Assembly: GCA_017436865.1 (NCBI GenBank)
Contig: JAFSCH010000050.1
Span: forward strand, 1 to 43,348
Source: Lachnospiraceae bacterium
GTDB taxonomy: Bacteria; Bacillota; Clostridia; Lachnospirales; Lachnospiraceae
Length of the DNA: 43,348 bases
Reading direction: 5' to 3'
The position numbers were made by a program, and so were the translations under genes. A model generated the notes under the pieces. It was not told the DNA's origin and searched no databases. It saw only the letters and a list, made by a program, of their open reading frames with translations. Positions 13,174 to 35,260 of the stretch are shown one piece after another (position 1 is the first letter of the stretch; the number at the start of each line of letters is the position of its first letter).

Positions 13174-13360
13174 ACAATTGAACGATTGTTAATTAAAAGG
13201 AAATAAAATTAACTGGTATTCAATATGGAAAAATGGAGTAAACTTCGAGAAAATAATGAAAATGTAATGGAATTTTTAAATGTATGAGGTATACTTTTCT
13301 TATATTATGTAATGTTGCAAAGAGAGGAAGTACTGTTTAACAGTATGGAGGGATGAAAAT
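13174..13360 (+). other. AT-rich gap before the 92-aa gene
   Basis: Only a 20-codon frame (13225-13287) is present, without convincing support. No strong promoter is visible. Confidence 0.4.
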
Positions 13361-13639
13361 ATGTGGACAGTAAAACAATTGCAGGAAGCAGACTATGGGT
13401 GTGAAGAAAGAATGCCAGGAGAACCTTTAAAAACTGTGGTTGTGCTTGAAGCAGATGATGGGAGAATATGTCAGTTTGAAGTTGCGGATGACTGGTTGAT
13501 TAAGCAAGAAATTGAAGAAGGGGATGAATGGCCTGAGGACATTGATGAAGCAGATTCATTAGCTGAGCAAATAGCGATTCAAAATGAATGCATGAACAGT
13601 TACTTTGAATCGTTATCGCAGCTAGAAGAGTATGAATAA
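13361..13639 (+). CDS. Hypothetical acidic protein, 92 aa, of the DUF4317 module
   Basis: This encodes 92 residues, strongly acidic, starting MWTVKQLQEADYGCEERMPG. It has GGAGG before the ATG and ends 26 bp before the DUF4317 start. A broken paralogue lies at 32566-32837 and a shorter relic at about 18794-18852. The recurrence next to DUF4317-type genes suggests a functional pair. I do not know its biochemical role. Confidence 0.75.
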   Translation: MWTVKQLQEADYGCEERMPGEPLKTVVVLEADDGRICQFEVADDWLIKQEIEEGDEWPEDIDEADSLAEQIAIQNECMNSYFESLSQLEEYE

Positions 13640-18787: not shown

Positions 18788-19119
18788 AGAAGCGAGTATG
18801 TCAGGTTGAAGTTGCTGATGGTGGTTTACCAATCAAGAAATGGAAGGATAGTACAATAGTGGATAAAGAATAGTTAAGATATTCTGGGTAATAGTCATGC
18901 AAAGGTCAGCTGCTCATCTAAAAAAAGAACAGTTGTTTGTGGTGATTATTGGACACCTAATAATCTACAATTGGAATCAAGATAAGGAAAAACTTATTTT
19001 GGTTCCAATTTTTTTATTTTACGTGAAAGGCTAGTTGAAGTGGCTACTCTCAATGCACGGAGTATGAATTCCTAGAAGAAGTACTATGGAGTCAGGGAAA
19101 AGGAATTAGCAAAGAGAGA
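18788..19119 (+). other. Gap after sbcC with a gene relic and a terminator
   Basis: 18794-18852 encodes a relic of the 92-aa gene at 13361 (CQVEVADGG, then LPIKKWK, against CQFEVADDW and LIKQE). AATTGGAATCAAGATAAG at about 18969 pairs with CTTATTTTGGTTCCAATT and is followed by a T7 run ending near 19016; it is a likely terminator of sbcDC. Nothing else was recognised. Confidence 0.6.
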
Positions 19120-19158
19120 AATTAAAAAGTACCGTAAATTGAATTACGATACTTTTTT
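19120..19158. terminator. Bidirectional terminator before the cas locus; 3' end of the crRNA-like RNA
   Basis: AAAAAGTACCGTAA (19124-19137) and TTACGATACTTTTT (19144-19157) form a stem with one mismatch. Both strands read T-runs, so it can end plus-strand transcripts and the minus-strand RNA that starts near 19213. Confidence 0.8.
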
Positions 19159-19213
19159 GAATATATTTTAATTATTATTTCAATCCACATCTCTTGGGAC
19201 ACTAAGAGATGAC
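19120..19213 (-). ncRNA. Candidate crRNA-like, cas-repressing RNA (CreR type)
   Basis: A single CRISPR-repeat-like hairpin lies at 19177-19213 on the minus strand: CATCTCTT, an 8-nt loop, AAGAGATG, then TGGATTGAAAT, identical to the last 11 nt of the array repeats (the handle left by Cas5c processing). It is followed by a pseudo-spacer starting AATAATTAAAATATATTC, which runs into the terminator. The pseudo-spacer's first 17 nt match 16 of 17 bases of 19247-19263 in the cas promoter, beside a TTC PAM. A promoter upstream would start the RNA at the hairpin. Such RNAs are known to guide type I effectors to repress cas genes without cleavage. I infer the same here; no expression data are available. 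Confidence 0.82.
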
Positions 19214-19219
19214 ACAGCT

Positions 19220-19248
19220 ATTTTATCATAATGAGTAGTCGCGTTCAA
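19220..19248 (-). promoter_or_regulatory. Promoter of the crRNA-like RNA
   Basis: On the minus strand TTGAAC (19243-19248), a 17-bp spacer, and TAAAAT (19220-19225) place the start near 19213, exactly at the repeat-like hairpin. The -35 box overlaps the TTC PAM and first bases of the cas-promoter target, so effector binding could also repress this RNA. Confidence 0.72.
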
Positions 19249-19270
19249 TAAATAAAATATATTTGACATG
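19244..19270 (+). promoter_or_regulatory. Pseudo-protospacer in the cas promoter
   Basis: TTC (19244-19246) is followed by AATAAATAAAATATATT (19247-19263), which matches the pseudo-spacer at 16 of 17 positions. The mismatch is at position 6, and the next one at 18. Both are positions that type I crRNAs do not pair. The match runs up to the -35 box. Confidence 0.8.
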
Positions 19271-19291
19271 TTATAGGATGAGTAGTAACAT
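19263..19291 (+). promoter_or_regulatory. cas operon promoter
   Basis: A perfect TTGACA (19263-19268), a 17-bp spacer, and TAACAT (19286-19291). A direct repeat ATGAGTAGT at 19231 and 19278 brackets the region and could be a protein-binding site. Confidence 0.75.
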
Positions 19292-19321
19292 ATAAATGTA
19301 GTGACAAAGGAGACTAAAAAC

Positions 19322-21748
19322 ATGAATTGTATAGCACATTTGGCGATTAAAGATGGAGAAAGAATAGAACAATATTTAGAAGAACACTGTAGTCAGGTTG
19401 CAAAGTATGCAGGAGAAAGTTTGAAAAATATAGGATTTTATAATGTGGCGTATTTGAGTGGAGCGTTGCACGATATGGGGAAGGCAACCCAGAGTTTTGA
19501 CGAATATATAGAGAAAGCTTTTCGAGGAGAAAACCCTACAAAGGGCTCAGTGATTCATAGTTATACAGGTGTAGTATATATTCTGGAGAAATATCATAAT
19601 GAGGGGAGTTATGAAAAATTAACTAGTGAGATAATCGGTTATGCAATAGGAGCACATCACGGATTGTTTGATTGTATTGATTTATATGGATGTAATGGAT
19701 TTGATAAGCGATTAATGAAAGATAAATCGGAAATCTGTTATGAAGAAGCAGTCGATAATTTTTTCAGTGGAGTATTAGCTGAAAAAGAAATAGAAGAGTA
19801 TTTTAGGAAAGCAGTAGATGAAATAAAAAGTTTTTGTGATAGATGTGTTAAGAGTATTTCCGTGGAGAAAAAAGAAAAAAATCAGGTAATGGATTTTCAA
19901 ATCGGATTTTTAGCTAGATTAGTAACTTCAGCGGTAATCTATGGTGATAGAAGAGATACTCGTGAGTTTATGCAAGGTAGCGTAGAGAATGTGCAAGATT
20001 TTAGTGTAGAGAAGAATAAATGGATGGAAATAACAGAGCCTTTTGAGAAAAAGATAAAACTATTTTCTGCAAAAACAGAATTAAATAAAGTGCGTCATAA
20101 AATATCAAATCAATGTTTTGATTTTGCAAAAAGAGAAACAGGAATATATCGATTGAATGTACCAACAGGCGCAGGAAAAACATTATCAACTTTACGGTAT
20201 GCATTAGAACATGCCAAAGTATATGGAAAAAAAAGAATTATATTTATTATCCCATTGCTTAGTGTTATCGATCAAAACGCAAAAGTATTTCACGAGTATC
20301 TGGGAAATAGTGGTAACATTCTTGAGCATCATTCTAATGTAATTAGAGAAAGAACAGAGGCCGACGAAAAAGAAAATGAGTATAATGATGGATATTTGCA
20401 AGAAGATTGGAATGGTTATCCTATCATTATATCTACCCTAGTGCAATTATTGGAAATATTGTTTGCGCACAAAACATCAACAATTAGCAGGTTACAAGCA
20501 TTAAGTGACAGTGTTATCGTGTTTGATGAAATACAATCTCTACCAAAGAAAACAACAGAGATGTTTAATGTTGCAATGAACTTCTTAAAAACGCATTGTA
20601 ATACCACCATTATACTATCCTCAGCAACACAGCCTTGCTTAGAAACAGTAGAGTGGCCAATAGAATTAGCAGATAATCCGGATATGGTCAAATTATCCGA
20701 GAGTGAGTTAGAGGTGTTTAATAGAGCAGAAATTATAGATAAGATTACGCCGTATGGGATGTCTGATGATGAATTAGAAGAATTTTGTGAAGAATTGATT
20801 AGAGATACTAGTTCATTGTTAGTTATCTGTAACACCAAAAAAGAGGCAAGAGATCTGTTTTGCAGATTAAATGATAAAGGAAATGAGAACTGCGAGGTGT
20901 TTCATCTTTCAACAGCTATGTGTCAAGCACATAGAGTAAATGTGCTGGTTGATATACAGAGAAAATTAGATACAGTGCAGAAGAAACCACAGGAAAGCAA
21001 AAAAATAATTTGTGTTGCAACACAGATGGTTGAAGCGGGAATTGATTTTTCATTTCAGTGTGTGGTTCGTTTGCTCGCAGGTTTGGATAATCTGACGCAA
21101 GCAGCTGGTAGATGTAACAGAAGTAACGAATATTTGGAAAAAGGAAAAGTATATTTTGTAAGACTGCAAAATGAATATTTAAGTAAGCTAACAGAGATTA
21201 AGGTAGCACAAGAGAGTGCGGCGGAAGTATTACAAAAGAAAGATTTGCTATATAAGGAAAATATCATCGGAGAGCAAGCTATCAATTCATTTTATAAAGG
21301 TGTTTTTGCTACCTTAAGAAAGGAAATAAAATATCCGATGCCGGATGATACAAAATATTCTTTATCAAGGTTGCTTGGAAATCAATTGAAAGAAAATGCC
21401 AGCTACTATATGACGCAACCTTTTAAGACAGTAGCAAGTAAGTTTAAAGTATTCGATGATGAAACCGTGGATGTTATTGTACCGTATGGTAATGGTATTG
21501 ACATTATACAGAGGCTGCAAAGCATAGATAACTACAGAGAGGAGATAGGGGAATTAAAAGAAATTATTAAGGCTGCAAAACCGTACACAATAAGTGTTTA
21601 TAATCATCAATTAAAGAAATTATCGGAGTATGGTTGGCTAGAGGAATTTTTTGAAGGAAAGATTTTGGTATTAAGTGAAGAAATGTACTCTGAAAAATAT
21701 GGACTAAAGCAAATGGTTCAGCAGAGTGTAGAAAATTATATTTTTTAA
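19322..21748 (+). CDS. cas3: CRISPR-associated helicase-nuclease Cas3 (type I-C)
   Basis: This 808-residue protein degrades DNA bound by the type I-C Cascade. The HD nuclease domain is N-terminal (LHDMGK near residue 48; GAHHG near 112). The SF2 helicase follows: motif I VPTGAGKT near 279, motif II VFDEIQSL near 400, SSATQP, VATQMVEAGIDFSF and QAAGRCNR. The start at 19322 follows AAAGGAGA by 7 nt; the GTG at 19301 lacks a site. First gene of the cas operon; its stop overlaps an upstream in-frame ATG of cas5c. Confidence 0.96.
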   Translation: MNCIAHLAIKDGERIEQYLEEHCSQVAKYAGESLKNIGFYNVAYLSGALHDMGKATQSFDEYIEKAFRGENPTKGSVIHSYTGVVYILEKYHNEGSYEKLTSEIIGYAIGAHHGLFDCIDLYGCNGFDKRLMKDKSEICYEEAVDNFFSGVLAEKEIEEYFRKAVDEIKSFCDRCVKSISVEKKEKNQVMDFQIGFLARLVTSAVIYGDRRDTREFMQGSVENVQDFSVEKNKWMEITEPFEKKIKLFSAKTELNKVRHKISNQCFDFAKRETGIYRLNVPTGAGKTLSTLRYALEHAKVYGKKRIIFIIPLLSVIDQNAKVFHEYLGNSGNILEHHSNVIRERTEADEKENEYNDGYLQEDWNGYPIIISTLVQLLEILFAHKTSTISRLQALSDSVIVFDEIQSLPKKTTEMFNVAMNFLKTHCNTTIILSSATQPCLETVEWPIELADNPDMVKLSESELEVFNRAEIIDKITPYGMSDDELEEFCEELIRDTSSLLVICNTKKEARDLFCRLNDKGNENCEVFHLSTAMCQAHRVNVLVDIQRKLDTVQKKPQESKKIICVATQMVEAGIDFSFQCVVRLLAGLDNLTQAAGRCNRSNEYLEKGKVYFVRLQNEYLSKLTEIKVAQESAAEVLQKKDLLYKENIIGEQAINSFYKGVFATLRKEIKYPMPDDTKYSLSRLLGNQLKENASYYMTQPFKTVASKFKVFDDETVDVIVPYGNGIDIIQRLQSIDNYREEIGELKEIIKAAKPYTISVYNHQLKKLSEYGWLEEFFEGKILVLSEEMYSEKYGLKQMVQQSVENYIF

Positions 21749-21762
21749 TGGAGGTGATGACA

Positions 21763-22488
21763 GTGATACACAGAAATTCAGTTGAGTTTGAGGTTTATGG
21801 AGATTATGGGTTGTTTTCAGAACCAGTGACTAGAGTTGGGGGCGAAAAATGCTCAAGTCAAGTACCAAGTTATGAAGCTATAAAAGGAATACTTCATAGT
21901 ATTTATTGGAAACCAACGATAATCTGGATTGTAGATGAAATTCGCGTTATGAATCCAATTCAAACAGAAACGAAAGGAATCCGACCAATCAAGTATTATA
22001 AGGATGGTAATGATTTATCTTATTATACATATTTGCGTGATTGCAGATATCAAGTAAGAGCACATTTTATATGGAATAAAAATCGACCAGAACTGGAATG
22101 TGATAGAAATGAGCACAAGCATCATAATATTGCTAAACGAATGATAGAAAGAGGTGGAAGACGTGATGTTTTCTTAGGTACACGTGAGTGTCAAGGGTAT
22201 GTAAAGCCATGTGTATTCGGAGAGGGCAAAGGATTTTATGATGACATCGAAGAGCTGGGATTTGGAATGACATATCATGGTATCACTTATGCAGATGAGG
22301 CGTATTCAGAAGATACAAAAGGGAAGATGTCTGTACGATTTTGGCGTGCTGAAATGAAGAAAGGTGTGATTTCTTTTATTCCACCATGGGAGTGCATACA
22401 CAGACCGATTCGTGAAATGAATGTAAAAGCATTTGGAGAGGCACATAATAATATTAGCTTTGACAAGGAGGAAGAGGTGATAGACTAA
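21763..22488 (+). CDS. cas5c: Cas5c (Cas5d), type I-C crRNA endonuclease
   Basis: This encodes 241 residues. In type I-C, which has no Cas6, Cas5c cuts the repeat RNA below its hairpin and keeps the handle bound. The N-terminal VEFEVYGDYGLFSEPVTRVG (RAMP fold), GILHSIYWKP, and the EHKHHNIAKRMIERGGRRDV stretch holding candidate catalytic Lys-His residues fit the family. GTG at 21763 is chosen because GGAGG lies 8 nt upstream; in-frame ATGs at 21748 and 21757 overlap that site. It ends directly at the cas8c start. Confidence 0.93.
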   Translation: MIHRNSVEFEVYGDYGLFSEPVTRVGGEKCSSQVPSYEAIKGILHSIYWKPTIIWIVDEIRVMNPIQTETKGIRPIKYYKDGNDLSYYTYLRDCRYQVRAHFIWNKNRPELECDRNEHKHHNIAKRMIERGGRRDVFLGTRECQGYVKPCVFGEGKGFYDDIEELGFGMTYHGITYADEAYSEDTKGKMSVRFWRAEMKKGVISFIPPWECIHRPIREMNVKAFGEAHNNISFDKEEEVID

Positions 22489-24342
22489 ATGTCATGGATG
22501 AAACAGTTATATCTTACGTATGATGAAATAGCAAAGCGAGATGATGAGGATAATGTATTAACACCGCTGGCGCATCAATATGCGAAAGCTCAGCTAGAAG
22601 TCCTTTTGCAGGAAAATGGCGAACTGGTAACTATTAATATTGTGGATAAGGATGCTGCCAGAACCTTGATTCCGGTTACAGAGGCTTCTAGCGGAAGGAG
22701 TTCAGGTGTTGCGCCTCATGCACTATGTGATACGTTAGCTTATGTTGTGAAAGATTTTTCGAAACATTGCAAAAGTGAAAAAGACAAGAATATGGCAGAT
22801 AAGAAGTATGAAGCATATATTCAGAATCTTAAAAAATGGTGTGAATCAGATTATTCTCATATTAAGGTTAGAGCAATCTACCAGTATTTAACAAGTGGAG
22901 AAATGTTAAGTGATTTGATAAAAACGGATATTATTCATTTGGATGATATGGGATTATATCAAGATGAAAAAATAGCCGGACAATCATATGAGAAGTCACT
23001 TGTTAGATTTAAGGTAATTATGCATGATTTGAATAGTAGTCTGGGCGATGGAATCGATATGTCTCTGATAAATTCATATATTGAATTTTATCAGGCAAAT
23101 CAAGATGGTAGAAGAGATATTTGCTATTTTTCAGGACTTGAGAAAGTAATATCGGACAATCATCCAAAGGGTGTAGTCCCGATAGCTGGAAATGCAAAAC
23201 TGGTATCGGCTAATGACAGTAGTGGATATACTTTTAGAGGCAGATTTCGTGATGCGCAACAGGCAAGTGCTTTAAGTTATGACGCGTCACAGAAGATTCA
23301 CAGTGCCTTGGCTTGGCTGGTTAAGAATCAAGGGGAAACAATAGGAACGAAGGATACACGAACTTTCGTCTGCTGGAATCCGCAGGGTAAGAAGACGATA
23401 CCACTCTTTGATGATATATATGGTATTGAGGAAGATGAAGAAGAATGCGTTGATATAGATTATGGAAGAAAGTTCAGAAATACACTAAAAGGATATAAAG
23501 ATCAGTTTGCTGAGGATGAAAATATTCTAGTGATGGGATTAGAAGCGGCGACAGCAGGACGTCTATCCATTACATACTATAACGAGTTTTCAGCTAGAGA
23601 ATTCTGGGACAGAATTGAGCAATGGTATGATACTTGTAAGTGGAATTATTTTGATTACAAAAAAAAGAAAAATAAAGAACGTTCACCGACATTTAAACAA
23701 ATTGCACAGTGTGCCTTCGGAACAGAGAAAGGAAGTTTTATTGATGTCAGCGATAAGGTTTTAAAAGAGCAATCGCAACGCTTGATGAGGTGCATGCTTG
23801 AAGATGGAAAGATTCCTTTAGATATTGTAAATGCGTTGGTAAACAGGGCATCTACGCCTACAGCATATTCATATTATAACAGGGAATATTTGTTATCAAC
23901 AACGTGTGCAGTTATCAAGAAATATTATTTTGACAAGAAAGGAGAAAAAGTTTCGATGAAGTTAGATTTAAATAATACGGACAGAAGTTATTTGTTTGGT
24001 CGTTTATTGGCAATTTATGATCACGCAGAAAGAATCACATATGACAATTTGGGAGAACGTGATACAAATGCAGTCAGACTACAAAGTGCATTTGTAAATC
24101 ATCCTATGCAGACGTGGCTGGTTTTAGAGGAGGTAATGAATCCATACTATAAAAAATTAGGCGCAAAAAGAAGTGGATATTTTAAAACTATGATAAGCGA
24201 AATTGTTACAATGATACAAAATGGTGATGTGGCTGAGTTAAATAAGAGATTAAAGGAAACATATTTGCTGGGTTATTATTTACAACGAGCAGAATTGTAT
24301 AAGAAAAACGATGAAAAGCAGGAGGTAGAGGATAATGAGTAA
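22489..24342 (+). CDS. cas8c: Cas8c (Csd1), large Cascade subunit
   Basis: This 617-residue large subunit of type I-C Cascade recognises the PAM and recruits Cas3. Family features: the N-terminal MKQLYLTYDEIAKR, VTEASSGRSSGVAPHALCDT, CYFSGLEKVISDNHPKGVVP, ARSTPTAY-like NRASTPTAYSYYNREYLLST, and NHPMQTW followed by YYKKLGAKRSGYF near the C-terminus. A separate internal start in the C-terminal part of cas8c is known to yield the small subunit Cas11c in type I-C; I could not locate that start with confidence. It overlaps cas7 by 8 bp. Confidence 0.95.
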   Translation: MSWMKQLYLTYDEIAKRDDEDNVLTPLAHQYAKAQLEVLLQENGELVTINIVDKDAARTLIPVTEASSGRSSGVAPHALCDTLAYVVKDFSKHCKSEKDKNMADKKYEAYIQNLKKWCESDYSHIKVRAIYQYLTSGEMLSDLIKTDIIHLDDMGLYQDEKIAGQSYEKSLVRFKVIMHDLNSSLGDGIDMSLINSYIEFYQANQDGRRDICYFSGLEKVISDNHPKGVVPIAGNAKLVSANDSSGYTFRGRFRDAQQASALSYDASQKIHSALAWLVKNQGETIGTKDTRTFVCWNPQGKKTIPLFDDIYGIEEDEEECVDIDYGRKFRNTLKGYKDQFAEDENILVMGLEAATAGRLSITYYNEFSAREFWDRIEQWYDTCKWNYFDYKKKKNKERSPTFKQIAQCAFGTEKGSFIDVSDKVLKEQSQRLMRCMLEDGKIPLDIVNALVNRASTPTAYSYYNREYLLSTTCAVIKKYYFDKKGEKVSMKLDLNNTDRSYLFGRLLAIYDHAERITYDNLGERDTNAVRLQSAFVNHPMQTWLVLEEVMNPYYKKLGAKRSGYFKTMISEIVTMIQNGDVAELNKRLKETYLLGYYLQRAELYKKNDEKQEVEDNE

Positions 24343-25189
24343 CTTACAGAATAAGATTGATTTTGTAGTATTGGTAAAGGTGGAAAATGCGAATCCGAAT
24401 GGTGATCCGTTGAATGGAAACAGACCGAGAACAACATATAGTGGTAATGGAGAAATTTCCGATGTATGTATTAAGAGAAAAATCAGAAATCGTTTGCAGG
24501 ATATGGGAGAGAATCTGTTTGTACAATCGTCAGAAAGAAGTGACGATGGATATACATCATTAAGCGAGCGTGCTTCAAAGACTATTACATCTTATAAAGA
24601 TAATGATGATTATGCAAAGCAAGCATGCGAAAAGTGGATTGATGTAAGAAGCTTTGGACAAGTATTTGCATTTAAGTCATCGGATAAAAAGGAAAGTGTT
24701 TCGGTAGGAGTACGAGGACCGGTTTCTGTTCATCAGGCAATTAGTTGTTCACCGGTTGATATTAACAGTATGCAGATAACCAAGAGTGTTAATAGTGAAC
24801 CGACAAAGGATGGAAAGAAAACTTCAGATACAATGGGTACGAAGCATTATGTTGATTTCGGACTGTATAAAATAAAGGGATCTATCAATGTACAACAGGC
24901 TGAAAAAACAGGATTTTCGGAGGGGGATGCGGAGAAGATAAAAGAGGCATTACGAACCTTATTTATCAATGATTCTTCAGCAGCGAGACCAGATGGAAGT
25001 ATGGAAGTAGTAAAAATATATTGGTGGAAACATAATAATAAGATTGGACAGTATTCAGCGGCAAAAGTACATGATTCTGTCAAGGTAACACTAAAAGAAG
25101 ATGTCGCTGTGCCAAGTAGTGTAGACGATTATGTGATTACGGTGGAAGAATTAACTGATTTGGCTCCAGAGGTAATAGAAGGAATATAA
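24335..25189 (+). CDS. cas7c: Cas7c (Csd2), Cascade backbone
   Basis: This 284-residue protein forms the helical filament that holds the crRNA spacer. The Cas7 signature VKVENANPNGDPLNGNRPRT at the N-terminus and CIKRKIRNRL are clear. VRGPVSVHQAISCSPVDINS and TMGTKHYVDFGLYKIKGSIN are typical of Csd2. The start codon lies inside the end of cas8c, showing translational coupling. Confidence 0.96.
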   Translation: MSNLQNKIDFVVLVKVENANPNGDPLNGNRPRTTYSGNGEISDVCIKRKIRNRLQDMGENLFVQSSERSDDGYTSLSERASKTITSYKDNDDYAKQACEKWIDVRSFGQVFAFKSSDKKESVSVGVRGPVSVHQAISCSPVDINSMQITKSVNSEPTKDGKKTSDTMGTKHYVDFGLYKIKGSINVQQAEKTGFSEGDAEKIKEALRTLFINDSSAARPDGSMEVVKIYWWKHNNKIGQYSAAKVHDSVKVTLKEDVAVPSSVDDYVITVEELTDLAPEVIEGI

Positions 25190-25192
25190 TTT

Positions 25193-25846
25193 ATGAGTGA
25201 ATCAGAAGAGTATTTAATGCTTTCGGGAATTCAACATTTTGCATATTGCAGGAGACAATGGGCTTTAATACATATAGAGCAACAGTGGTCAGAAAATGAA
25301 AGAACAGTTGATGGAAAATTATTTCACAAGGTTGCTCATGATGCAGAAGCGATAGAAAAACGAGGCGAGATTATAATTACCAGAGGACTTCGTATAAAAT
25401 CGGAGATTTATAAGGTTTCTGGAATTTGTGATGTTGTTGAGTTTCACAAAGCTGAAGATGGCATAACCCTTCATAAGTATGAAGGGTTATGGAAGCCTTA
25501 TCCGATAGAATATAAGAAGGGAAAACCGAAAGAAAATAATGCAGATGAACTTCAACTGTGCGGTCAGGCAATGTGCTTAGAAGAAATGTTATTGTGTGAT
25601 ATTCCTTCGGGGAGCTTGTTTTATGGAGAAACACGAAGAAGAAAGAATGTTGAATTCACAATAGAACTGCGAGAACAGGTTAAAGTGATGTTGGAAGAAA
25701 TGCAAGAATTGTGGAAAAGAGGTCATACTCCCAAGGTAAAACCGCAAAAAGGATGCAATGCATGTTCTTTAAAGGATATTTGCGTTCCAAAGTTACAAAA
25801 TACTTCTGTTACATCATATATAAATGAAAGACTAAAGGGAATATAA
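25193..25846 (+). CDS. cas4: Cas4 exonuclease, spacer acquisition
   Basis: This 217-residue RecB-like nuclease has an iron-sulphur cluster and selects PAM-containing prespacers for Cas1-Cas2. One cluster cysteine lies in FAYCRRQWALIHIEQQW near the N-terminus and three in CNACSLKDICVP near the C-terminus. The nuclease core is visible as HKVAHD, GICDVVEF and YPIEYKKGKPKE (conserved Asp, Glu, Lys). The gene starts 3 bp after cas7 and ends 1 bp before cas1. Confidence 0.95.
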   Translation: MSESEEYLMLSGIQHFAYCRRQWALIHIEQQWSENERTVDGKLFHKVAHDAEAIEKRGEIIITRGLRIKSEIYKVSGICDVVEFHKAEDGITLHKYEGLWKPYPIEYKKGKPKENNADELQLCGQAMCLEEMLLCDIPSGSLFYGETRRRKNVEFTIELREQVKVMLEEMQELWKRGHTPKVKPQKGCNACSLKDICVPKLQNTSVTSYINERLKGI

Positions 25847-25847
25847 A

Positions 25848-26879
25848 ATGCGAAAACTTTTAAATACTTTATTTATTACCAGTGAAAAGGCTTTTCTATC
25901 GCTTCAAGGGGAAACAGTTTATGTGGAAATAGATAAGAAGAAAGTAGGGCAATTTCCATTGCATACGTTGGAAGGTATTATTTGTTTTTCTTATAATGGA
26001 GCAACACCAGCATTTATGGGAGCTTGTGCAGAGAGAAATGTTAATTTGTCTTTTTTTACACCGCATGGAAAGTTCTTGTGTAGAGTAGTAGGAGAGAGCT
26101 GCGGAAATGTATTGCTTCGTAAGCAGCAATATAGGATATCGGATAATATGGACGAAAGTTGCAAAGTAGCAAGAAACTTTATACTGGGTAAGGTATATAA
26201 CTCTAGATGGAGTATTGATAGGACTGTTCGTGACCATGAATTGCGTATTGATGTAGAAAAGTGTAAAGATGTTATAAAATATTTGAATGATGCAATGATT
26301 AAAATAAAAGATACAGGGAATTTGGATTCGCTGCGTGGCATGGAAGGTGAGAGTGCCTCTTTGTACTTTAGTGTTTTTGATGATTTGATATTAAATCAAA
26401 AAGAAACGTTTAAATTTAAAGGTAGAACGAGGCGCCCGCCACTTGATGAAGTTAATGCAATGTTATCATTTGGATATACTTTATTAACGAATGATTGTGC
26501 AAAAGCATTAGAGGGAGTTGGGATAGATTCTTATGTAGGATTTATGCATCGTGATCGTCCTGGACGAAAGTCATTGGCTTTAGATTTGATGGAAGAATTA
26601 CGTCCTGTATTAGTGGATAGATTTGTACTGACATTAATAAATAATCGACAAATAAAAGGACAACATTTTAGAACATCAGAAAGTAATGCAATTGAGTTTA
26701 CGGATGAAGGTAAAAAGATATTTTTAACTGCGTGGCAGGAGCACAAGCGTGAGGAATTTAAGCATCCTTACCTTAATGAAAAAGTAAATTGGGGCTTGTT
26801 GCCTCATATTCAAGCATTGTTGTTAGCGAGATTTATTCGTGGAGATATTGAGGAATATCCACCTTTTCTATGGAAGTGA
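25848..26879 (+). CDS. cas1: Cas1 integrase, type I-C
   Basis: This 343-residue protein is the catalytic subunit of the spacer integrase. Typical features: the N-terminal beta domain (LFITSEKAFLSLQGETVYVE), GMEGESASLYF with the metal-binding glutamate, YVGFMHRDRPGRKSLALDLM with the catalytic histidine and an aspartate, and RPVLVDRF. Length is standard for type I-C. It belongs to the cas operon with 1-bp and 7-bp gaps on either side. Confidence 0.97.
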   Translation: MRKLLNTLFITSEKAFLSLQGETVYVEIDKKKVGQFPLHTLEGIICFSYNGATPAFMGACAERNVNLSFFTPHGKFLCRVVGESCGNVLLRKQQYRISDNMDESCKVARNFILGKVYNSRWSIDRTVRDHELRIDVEKCKDVIKYLNDAMIKIKDTGNLDSLRGMEGESASLYFSVFDDLILNQKETFKFKGRTRRPPLDEVNAMLSFGYTLLTNDCAKALEGVGIDSYVGFMHRDRPGRKSLALDLMEELRPVLVDRFVLTLINNRQIKGQHFRTSESNAIEFTDEGKKIFLTAWQEHKREEFKHPYLNEKVNWGLLPHIQALLLARFIRGDIEEYPPFLWK

Positions 26880-26886
26880 GGTTAAA

Positions 26887-27177
26887 ATGCTGGTTTTGAT
26901 TACCTATGATGTAAATACAGAGGATGCAAAAGGAAGAACGCGTTTGCGTAAGGTTGCAAAACAATGTGTTAATTATGGACAGCGAGTCCAAAATTCGGTA
27001 TTTGAATGTATTTTGGATATGGCACAAGCAAAAATGTTAAAAGCATCCTTGTTAGAAATTATTGATACTAACAAGGATAGCTTGAGATTTTATTATCTTG
27101 GAAATAGCTATCAAAACAAAATTGAACATTTTGGTATAAAAGAAACCTTTCATCAAGAGGGAACGCTTATATTATAG
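26887..27177 (+). CDS. cas2: Cas2, integrase subunit
   Basis: This 96-residue ferredoxin-like homodimer bridges Cas1 dimers. MLVLITYDVNTEDAKGRTRL with the conserved aspartate, GQRVQNSVFECILD and the C-terminal YYLGNSYQNKIEHFG are characteristic of the I-C type. The start at 26887 is the first ATG fitting the family N-terminus; a frame to 26839 only overlaps cas1. Last gene of the operon. Confidence 0.95.
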   Translation: MLVLITYDVNTEDAKGRTRLRKVAKQCVNYGQRVQNSVFECILDMAQAKMLKASLLEIIDTNKDSLRFYYLGNSYQNKIEHFGIKETFHQEGTLIL

Positions 27178-27351: not shown

Positions 27352-28973
27352 GTCTCTTCCTACGCGGAAGAGTGGATTGAAATAATCATTTGCTGTGTAG
27401 TGGTAACACCTATATTAGTCTCTTCCTACGCGGAAGAGTGGATTGAAATTATTTTTCCTTAACTCTATAACAGGACATTTACAGTCTCTTCCTACGCGGA
27501 AGAGTGGATTGAAATGTTATATACTGGGTTTAGGTTTACCGTTTAATTTTGTCTCTTCCTACGCGGAAGAGTGGATTGAAATAAGAAAAGGCAAGCAACA
27601 GAATCATGTATACTTTGTCTCTTCCTACGCGGAAGAGTGGATTGAAATTTACAATGCTACGGAAACAAACAGCGGTGCAGATACGTCTCTTCCTACGCGG
27701 AAGAGTGGATTGAAATGATTAAAGGATATGATGAGGTTATAGCTGAGATGTCTCTTCCTACGCGGAAGAGTGGATTGAAATTATCGGCATACACAGCCCA
27801 CACACCGCGCGGAAAAGTCTCTTCCTACGCGGAAGAGTGGATTGAAATATCTGTTGCAATACCTACATATTCAACGATTACTGTCTCTTCCTACGCGGAA
27901 GAGTGGATTGAAATTTTGCTCGGATGTGAGAAAATCAATCTTCTTTTGGTCTCTTCCTACGCGGAAGAGTGGATTGAAATACTCAGTGTATCAACGTTTT
28001 CGCCCAACGTATCAACGTCTCTTCCTACGCGGAAGAGTGGATTGAAATTTTGTAACGAATAAAGATTTTAATGCATACGATGTCTCTTCCTACGCGGAAG
28101 AGTGGATTGAAATTGTCCTAGATATATACAATTTTATTCGTAAATGTGTCTCTTCCTACGCGGAAGAGTGGATTGAAATATCAATATAACTACCGTCATA
28201 GTCGCTCGGGATTGTCTCTTCCTACGCGGAAGAGTGGATTGAAATCAAAATCTACCGACATAGATTTATTTACAGACGAGTGTCTATCCTACGCGGAAGA
28301 GTGGATTGAAATAAACTCTTTGAAGCAAGTATATGTCGCTAAAGTCGTCTCTTCCTACGCGGAAGAGTGGATTGAAATTTCGATATTCCTAAATCCCGCT
28401 CATAGCTCGCGGGGTCTCTTCCTACGCGGAAGAGTGGATTGAAATAACCCTAGTATCTTTCCCAACTACATGAAGAGTGTCTCTTCCTACGCGGAAGAGT
28501 GGATTGAAATACCATTGCAACAAGTCCGTATGATTGTGTTTTCGTCTCTTCCTACGCGGAAGAGTGGATTGAAATTTGCCGTTTTCGTTGAGTTCTCCGG
28601 TCTCGGAATCTGTCTCTTCCTACGCGGAAGAGTGGATTGAAATAATGGTTTTCCTCAAATCATAACTATCAAGGGCGGTCTCTTCCTACGCGGAAGAGTG
28701 GATTGAAATATCAGGAGTGAACAATGTCACACCTCAGCCGAATGTCTCTTCCTACGCGGAAGAGTGGATTGAAATCGTTCAAACGGAAAGAAAGGGAAAA
28801 AAATGAAAAGGTCTCTTCCTACGCGGAAGAGTGGATTGAAATAGACATTGTAAAGCGTTGAATTGTAATAATTACGGTCTCTTCCTACGCGGAAGAGTGG
28901 ATTGAAATAAGTGTGAATATGGCTTACATCATGGCAGCAGAGTCTCTTCCTACGCGGAAGAGTGGATTGAAAT
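27352..28973 (+). CRISPR. Type I-C CRISPR array, 25 repeats and 24 spacers
   Basis: The repeats are 32 bp: GTCTCTTCCTACGCGG followed by AAGAGTGGATTGAAAT. CTCTTCC and GGAAGAG form the stem for Cas5c, and TGGATTGAAAT is the 11-nt handle. By my reading the repeats start at 27352, 27418, 27484, 27551, 27617, 27685, 27750, 27817, 27883, 27949, 28017, 28082, 28148, 28214, 28282, 28347, 28414, 28479, 28544, 28612, 28678, 28744, 28811, 28877 and 28942. Spacers are 33-36 nt and all different. Only repeat 15 (28282-28312) is altered: 31 bp, with a damaged 5' stem arm. The leader and cas2 side is the young end. Confidence 0.98.
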
Positions 28974-32519: not shown

Positions 32520-32565
32520 ATATGGATGATTGATGTGGGAAAGAAGAAATGAGAGGCTAGACGAT

Positions 32566-32837
32566 ATGTGGACAGTAAAACAATTACAAGAAGCAGACTA
32601 TGGCTGTGAAGAAAGAATGCCAGGGGAACCATTAAAGACATTGGTTGTACTGGAATCAGATGATGGGAGAGTATGCCAATTTGAGGTTGCTGACGGTTGA
32701 CCAAGCAAGAAATCGAAGAGGGAGACGAATGGCCGGAGGATATTGATAAAGTAGATACATTAGCTGAGCAAATATCCATTCAAAATGAATGTATGAATCG
32801 TTATTTTGACTCGTTAGCGCAACTGGAGGAGGATTAA
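32566..32837 (+). pseudogene. Frameshifted paralogue of the 92-aa gene
   Basis: It matches the gene at 13361-13639 over its whole length (WTVKQLQEADYGCEERMPGE, then QFEVADG). A 4-nt deletion at about 32693 shifts the frame and gives an immediate TGA. After it the original frame continues to a TAA at 32835-32837. Without the DUF4317 partner next to it, it is a dead copy. Confidence 0.85.
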
Positions 32838-32962
32838 TACAAATTTGAGGGCTATTATTTAAATACTAAATTGTGTGATGTATAAGTGTAACAATTGTGA
32901 ATTATAACTTTATGATATAGACAAAATATGATATGATTTGTCTATAAAAATGGAGGTGTGGT

Positions 32963-34941: not shown

Positions 34942-35138
34942 GTACCAACAAGTATGAATAGCAGAAATGCCACCTGTTAAAGTGCAACGTCATTTATCCT
35001 GAAAATGCATAATGGATTAGTCTGACAACCGAATAAAAAATAAGTAATAAACCTTGCAATGAGCCAATCAAATTCCTCGTTTCAAGGTCTGTTTTTATCT
35101 TTATCAAATGTGGACCCAGTTTATGTTTTGAATTTTGT
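34942..35138. other. Intergenic stretch
   Basis: ACCTTG near 35055 and CAAGGT near 35083, followed by TGTTTTTA, may be a weak terminator. No gene recognised. Confidence 0.35.
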
Positions 35139-35260
35139 GGCAACTAGTTTGTATATATGTTATAATTGGTTTGGAATGAAAGAAAATTTTGAGTTTGATG
35201 GCAACTAGTTTGTATATATGTTATAATTAGTCTAAAATGAAAGAAAATTTTGAGTTTGAT
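35139..35260 (+). repeat. Tandem 61-bp duplication carrying promoters
   Basis: Two head-to-tail units (35139-35199 and 35200-35260) are identical at 57 of 61 positions. Each contains TGTTATAAT, an extended -10 box with TATAAT at 35161 and 35222, preceded by TGGCAA 17 bp upstream. The preceding 15 bases resemble the unit's end, so the duplication may be older and partly decayed. It lies 62-183 bp upstream of the chemotaxis receptor start. Confidence 0.85.

Follow-up and report, generated by a model that had tools for sequence, protein, structure and literature searches.

A probable CreR-type guide RNA beside the cas operon of a clostridial type I-C CRISPR-Cas system

What is a solitary, repeat-like hairpin doing in front of a complete set of cas genes? 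The question is raised by a stretch of 43,348 nucleotides from a Lachnospiraceae bacterium (the window, meaning the whole stretch of DNA analyzed), which contains the full type I-C operon cas3-cas5c-cas8c-cas7-cas4-cas1-cas2 and a CRISPR array. Between sbcC and cas3, on the minus strand, there is an element named here creR. Considering its anatomy, its match to the cas promoter and its occurrence in related loci, creR is very probably a CreR-type regulatory guide RNA of the type I-C system, acting to repress the cas operon. The features of the locus are summarized in Table 1.

Table 1. Coordinates of creR, its target, the cas operon and the CRISPR array in the window
Feature	Position	Strand	Remarks
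creR -35-like box TTGAAC	19243..19248	-	17-bp spacing to the -10; overlaps target PAM (19244-19246)
creR -10-like box TAAAAT	19220..19225	-	spacer to the -35 of 17 bp
creR, predicted crRNA-like RNA	19117..19213	-	both ends predicted; start at first base of GTC (19213), end after terminator-like hairpin
creR repeat-like hairpin	19188..19211	-	8-bp stem, 8-nt loop; arms CATCTCTT (19211-19204) and AAGAGATG (19195-19188)
creR 11-nt 5' handle TGGATTGAAAT	19177..19187	-	identical to handle of the array repeats (25 copies)
creR pseudo-spacer, 17 guide bases matching the cas promoter site	19160..19176	-	mismatch at 6
creR terminator-like hairpin	19124..19157	-	stands where a second repeat would be expected
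Target, PAM TTC (19244-19246) and protospacer (19247-19263)	19244..19263	+	16/17 match to guide; mismatched at 6 and then at 18
Predicted cas operon promoter TTGACA-17-TAACAT	19263..19291	+	-35 19263-19268, -10 19286-19291
cas3	19322..21748	+	Cas3-like_C_2, DEAD, HD
cas5c (Cas5d), I-C crRNA-processing subunit	21748..22488	+	PF09704, E 8.8e-39
cas8c (Csd1)	22489..24342	+	PF09709, E 1.2e-112
cas7 (Csd2)	24335..25189	+	PF05107, E 1e-83
cas4	25193..25846	+	PF01930
cas1	25848..26879	+	PF01867
cas2	26839..27177	+	PF09827; limits of the ORF; Cas2 match from residue 17, true start probably further inside
CRISPR array of 25 repeats with the handle at their end	27352..28973	+	limits are the first to the last repeat found

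Some other features of the window were recorded in passing. The array repeat at 28280-28312 has altered letters at its 5' end. Two near-duplicate stretches (13348-13638 and 32553-32839), separated by 19 kb, are 83-85% alike, and 27 nt of their sequence recur at 18794-18820, just after sbcC. At 35126-35247 there is a tandem 61-nt duplication (89%) with promoter-like letters inside.

An earlier note, made from the sequence alone, had described at 19177-19213 a hairpin with an 8-bp stem and the exact handle of the array, preceded by a promoter of its own that would start the RNA on the hairpin, followed by a pseudo-spacer matching a TTC-preceded site in the cas promoter, and closed by a terminator. 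The hairpin and handle are present as described, and the extent and position of the guide-site match, with TTC before the site, were confirmed. The promoter-like letters are also in place with the spacing claimed, but promoter predictions are weak when taken singly (3 found versus 2.8 expected by shuffling). A terminator-like hairpin does end the putative RNA, with just 3 GC pairs and with the run of T inside the stem; even so, chance alone seldom yields such hairpins (0.1 expected in 611 nt, 2 found). Both types of expression feature, promoter-like and terminator-like, are sequence predictions. The fold of the 97-nt RNA was unusually stable (z = -4.9), with none of 200 shuffles equally stable. 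The handle TGGATTGAAAT alone is not rare, as it occurs at 6 further places of the genome outside the window (reversed control, 2), so that it is the combination of features that counts. No second repeat was found at creR in the window, the best candidate agreeing in 15 of 32 letters, a value equalled by 209 of 500 shuffles. A search of Rfam with 18790-19400 gave no match up to E = 1, and the handle plus guide of the window gave none in viral contigs.

Concerning the target, the last base of the protospacer is also the first base of the -35 box of the predicted cas promoter. The pattern formed by TTY and the 14 non-sixth positions among the first 16 occurs a single time in the 4.2 Mb genome, precisely at the target site, and its reversed control does not occur at all. 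The score of this guide was equalled in none of 124 other cas3 upstream regions. The correspondence of guide and target is well beyond chance.

The occurrence of similar pairs of guide and site was studied in the cas3 upstream regions of other genomes. Cas3 matches were obtained in 33 of 144 relatives, 78 of 397 genomes of the family and 21 of 392 genomes of the order, and from a Cas3 alignment scan of named genomes the best 80 of 430 were taken; a single-protein Cas3 scan of genome contigs yielded no relatives. Before counting, 7 loci without a usable cas3 start, 8 with less than 150 nt upstream, 10 duplicates and the locus identical to the window (L134) were dropped. The survey set, including the matches from the best 80 of 430, comprised 125 distinct upstream regions, with Cas3 profile scores of 507-1139 bits, labeled as type I-C by that score and by the repeat where an array was seen, rather than by Cas8c. 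Weaker Cas3 matches (L017, L018, L020-L030 and L047-L050) stayed outside the 125; L047-L050 were scanned for the handle alone, with no match at up to 1 mismatch.

The handle was found, with at most 1 mismatch, in 31 of the 125 regions (reversed-handle control, 2), corresponding to 7 whole arrays and 24 standalone copies. Two of the handles, those of L095 and L119, lie no more than 17 nt from the cas3 start; they were left out of the site test and not counted as carriers. For 20 of the 22 standalone handles tested, the guide had a site of at least 13/14 in its own region, preceded by TTC (13 cases), TTT (6) or TCC (1). The first handle of L140 was rejected, having given a false internal match; the guide of this locus fits a site when read from the second, duplicated handle, which alone sets a fitting register. 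In L097, of the Spirochaetaceae, a standalone repeat-like element with the handle TGGGTTGAAAC has no matching cas-promoter site (11/14, equalled by 43 of 124 null regions) and was not counted as a carrier. When every TTGAAA tail of a locus was taken as a starting point, L062 (13/14) joined the list; directed at the inside of cas3, this search gave nothing.

The earlier note had expected the hairpin to be conserved in close relatives, and the pseudo-spacer to covary with the promoter site. This was borne out in 22 of the 125 distinct I-C-type loci, each with a creR-type element and a matching site in its own region. All the carriers were among the 76 clostridial regions, with 0 of 47 in other classes and 0 of 2 unplaced; two of the 22, L035 and L037, are near-identical. 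The guides mostly differ from carrier to carrier, each matching the site of its own cas3 upstream region. The guide score was also reached in 1 of 124 other regions for each of L035, L037 and L142, and in none for the remaining genuine cases. With equal weights, null regions reached the score in 1 of 124 for each of L034, L035, L037 and L115, and in 2, 3 and 6 of 124 for L142, L092 and L139, respectively. In L115 the guide has two sites in the upstream region, each of 13/14, which may form a double operator.

In the other 103 regions the element was not found in the stretch searched. Within the Cas3 clade of the window 5 of 8 loci carry it, the non-carriers being L031, L138 and L051, and L040 lacks it though close to the carrier L035. 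Elements with a degenerate handle were looked for in ten non-carriers (L031, L138, L051, L160, L039, L040, L128, L131, L132 and L133), and none was found. A FastTree tree of Cas3 requires 16 or more changes between presence and absence, and does not distinguish gain from loss. Such patchiness, like the degenerate repeat, is what a decayed remnant of an array would also display, that is, one repeat and part of a spacer devoid of function. A relic, however, would hardly keep in 22 loci a matching site with a PAM in the cas upstream region of the same locus, with mostly different guides and with guide and site changing in step; this explanation is given a negligible probability.

The positions that take part in the pairing were tabulated from the 20 pairs whose score was equalled in no more than 3 of 124 null regions; for each, the site had been selected on unmasked positions 1-17. 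L139, whose score is reached by 6 of 124, lies outside this table. Matches were found in 20, 19, 19, 20 and 20 of the 20 pairs at positions 1-5, in 4 at position 6, in 20, 20, 20, 20 and 19 at positions 7-11, in 5 at position 12, in 20, 19, 20, 20 and 14 at positions 13-17, and in 4, 3, 6 and 7 at positions 18-21. The PAMs of these pairs were TTC (13), TTT (5), TCC (1) and TCT (1). A second table, which includes L139 and omits L140, differed by no more than 1 at positions 1-17. As a control of phase, masking of positions 6 and 12 left 10 of the 22 carriers with a perfect match over the other 15 positions, while each of the five other phases left 1 of 22 over 14. Covariation was seen in L034 and L036, whose related guides differ at the pairing positions 10, 11 and 13, with their sites differing in step.

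A partial match between guide and site could also be expected if the RNA regulated the cas leader as an antisense, by duplex formation and without Cas proteins. We know of no RNA-RNA mechanism that leaves such a six-base pattern. Positions 6 and 12 are left out of the match, and a TTC-like PAM stands 5' of it, neither of which RNA pairing would need; the sites are equally divided between the two strands (11 and 11 of 22), and the site of the window is upstream of the predicted cas transcription start. Antisense regulation thus deserves hardly any credence. Judged from the aligned pairs, the pattern is the footprint of type I Cascade pairing and not that of an antisense RNA. In the I-E Cascade, bases 6, 12 and 18 are flipped out in the Cas7 backbone, according to passages of PMC5965380. 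In haloarchaea, the I-B CreA, as described in passages of PMC8501985, represses through pairs 1-5 and 7-11 after TTC, and its positions 6 and 12 can be mutated without effect.

Concerning the architecture of the element, GTC precedes the 5' arm in 22 of 22 carriers. In the outer five positions of the stem, next to GTC and the handle, 104 of 110 cells are paired, and all five positions are paired in 16 of 22 carriers; when the arms were swapped, with GTC re-chosen, the mean was 66.7 and the maximum 87 in 5000 swaps. The letters of the stem covary across the 22 carriers. As these letters differ from one carrier to another, and the loops range from 3 to 36 nt, cutting by Cas5c is not assured. In 7 of 21 carriers, one of them the window, 7-9 nt separate the end of the predicted -10 box from the stem, which would put the start on the repeat; the best-scoring promoter of the remaining carriers has another placement. 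Terminator-like hairpins, by our own rule, were found in 12 of 21. In L151, creR reads toward cas3, with the handle 94 nt before that gene and the site just upstream of a possibly shared promoter. In L034 and L036 the sites lie 229-275 nt before cas3, with long leaders in which inverted repeats seem, by eye, to be present, and which could hold further control or a small gene.

In 18 of 22 carriers no more than 20 nt lie between the target site and a predicted plus-strand -35 box, versus 31% under random placement. The exceptions are L034, L175, L142 and L092, the nearest such box being at 57, 60 and 282 nt in the first three, respectively; in L041 and L092 the site is downstream of the -35. 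Together with the PAM and the free positions 6 and 12, this proximity favors the earlier proposal of a Cascade guided to the cas promoter. The position of the sites bears also on a CreTA-like antitoxin role, in which the guide would repress a toxin rather than the cas genes, making the Cas complex addictive. The RNA would be of the same class, the I-B CreA pairs alike, and the sites of L034, L036, L044 and L143 are more than 200 nt before cas3, with room for a small gene. In the window, however, the predicted cas transcription start is about 24 nt before the ATG of cas3, which leaves no space for a toxin gene driven by the target promoter. This role is extremely unlikely.

The same data touch on whether creR acts on itself, as had been suggested from the overlap of the PAM with the creR -35. 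The target site overlaps the creR promoter in the window and in L130, and is separated from it by 5-23 nt in nine relatives (L159, L175, L034, L036, L058, L140, L116, L139 and L046), but in seven others (L142, L092, L035, L037, L044, L052 and L115) the distance is at least 56 nt. Self-repression is then possible in the window, since the PAM lies inside the creR -35 box, but the arrangement is not conserved. A rival reading has the bound Cascade mainly regulating creR, or helping cas transcription. Besides the overlap in the window, it could invoke L034, where 10 nt separate the site from the creR promoter and 57 nt from the nearest predicted plus-strand -35, and L036, where the two distances are 10 and 8 nt. 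It fits poorly with the seven distant relatives, in five of which (L035, L037, L044, L052 and L115) a predicted cas -35 is no more than 11 nt from the site, and the known cases of CreR and CreA repress. We consider it very unlikely, and repression of the cas operon remains the preferred reading.

CreR RNAs are commonly mini-CRISPRs with two degenerate repeats. The crRNA-like elements and mini-arrays of Shmakov et al. 2023 are reportedly a computationally defined class of standalone repeats adjoining cas genes, with partial complementarity to promoters, in many type I subtypes; creR resembles them on these points, being a standalone repeat by the cas genes with partial promoter complementarity. 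Cas9 is reportedly autoregulated by a natural single-guide RNA (Workman 2021), a likeness in that the effector is directed by a natural guide to the promoter that drives it, but that is a type II system with no relation in RNA or protein.

CreR, as presented in passages of PMC13131331 and PMC12737573 after Liu et al. 2023, is a crRNA-like RNA of the cas locus whose pseudo-spacer is partly complementary to a cas promoter and serves Cas autorepression; it is in print for I-B, I-E and V-A (PMC13131331, in part) and for type I and V-A in general (PMC12737573, in part). The window has in common with it the handle of the cognate system (the exact 11-nt handle of the array), a repeat-like hairpin placed to yield that handle, here with an 8-bp stem, and a partial, seed-anchored match with a PAM at the cognate cas promoter. 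It differs from the printed cases in its subtype, I-C, with no Cas6 and with processing by Cas5c, in having one repeat only plus a terminator-like hairpin, and in a pairing that spans three five-base segments. The CreA of Haloarcula hispanica also has one repeat and a terminator, and CreA shares with creR the degenerate repeat, the PAM TTC and the irrelevance of positions 6 and 12, while Cascade-guided repression would be shared by inference on our side; unlike creR, with about 15 paired bases, CreA represses an RNA toxin through 10 (passages of PMC8501985). Solitary repeat units are known too from the Racr RNA anti-CRISPRs of phages, with RacrIC1 for I-C, which are borne by viruses or plasmids and inhibit Cas assembly (passages of PMC10651486); creR, on the contrary, adjoins the cas operon, between sbcC and cas3, and its guide is directed at the cas promoter. 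No mention of an I-C CreR was found in the titles, abstract openings and passages that made up the literature covered. As the Shmakov elements reportedly span many type I subtypes, creR is best placed within the known CreR kind, as what appears to be its I-C addition: a Cas6-less subtype, one repeat with a terminator-like hairpin, and pairing over three segments.

A course of events can be proposed, in which transcription, processing, loading, the repressive direction and the feedback behavior are what we infer from the locus. The RNA would start on its own repeat-like hairpin and be cut by Cas5c below the stem, giving the 11-nt handle; a handle of this length is left by the I-C Cas5d according to passages of PMC5965380. 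Cas5c, Cas8c and Cas7 would load it, and the loaded Cascade would recognize, where the cas promoter begins with its -35 box, TTC and the three five-base segments (1-5, 7-11 and 13-17), and would keep RNA polymerase off. About 15 pairs would be too few for cleavage by Cas3, so the chromosome would be spared. In passages of PMC10989794, I-B spacers of up to 24 bases gave repression without interference, and in those of PMC8406640, killing by the I-C system of Xanthomonas required at least 27 matching bases after TTC; some 15 pairs at a promoter fit, therefore, binding without cutting. Canonical crRNAs draw on the same pool of Cas proteins, and the loop should therefore keep the Cas level proportional to that of crRNA and give way when Cascade is scarce or blocked. 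Most likely, the immune complex turns down its own production by way of creR.

A broader proposition, for which the chances appear about even, is that the I-C systems of Clostridia carry an undescribed class of one-repeat CreR, repeatedly gained or lost, in which contact is fixed at positions 1-5, 7-11 and 13-17 while 6, 12 and 18 drift. The set would then be a natural record of how the I-C Cascade pairs, with a match length above that of seed-only binding and below that of Cas3 recruitment. In any case, a widespread subtype without Cas6 would join, in Clostridia, those in which Cas expression is controlled by a guide RNA of the system itself, and the 22 guide-target pairs would indicate which positions matter inside the cell. 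A change of cas expression is also predicted in response to native I-C arrays and to I-C anti-CRISPRs, a point of relevance when native I-C systems are employed as tools.
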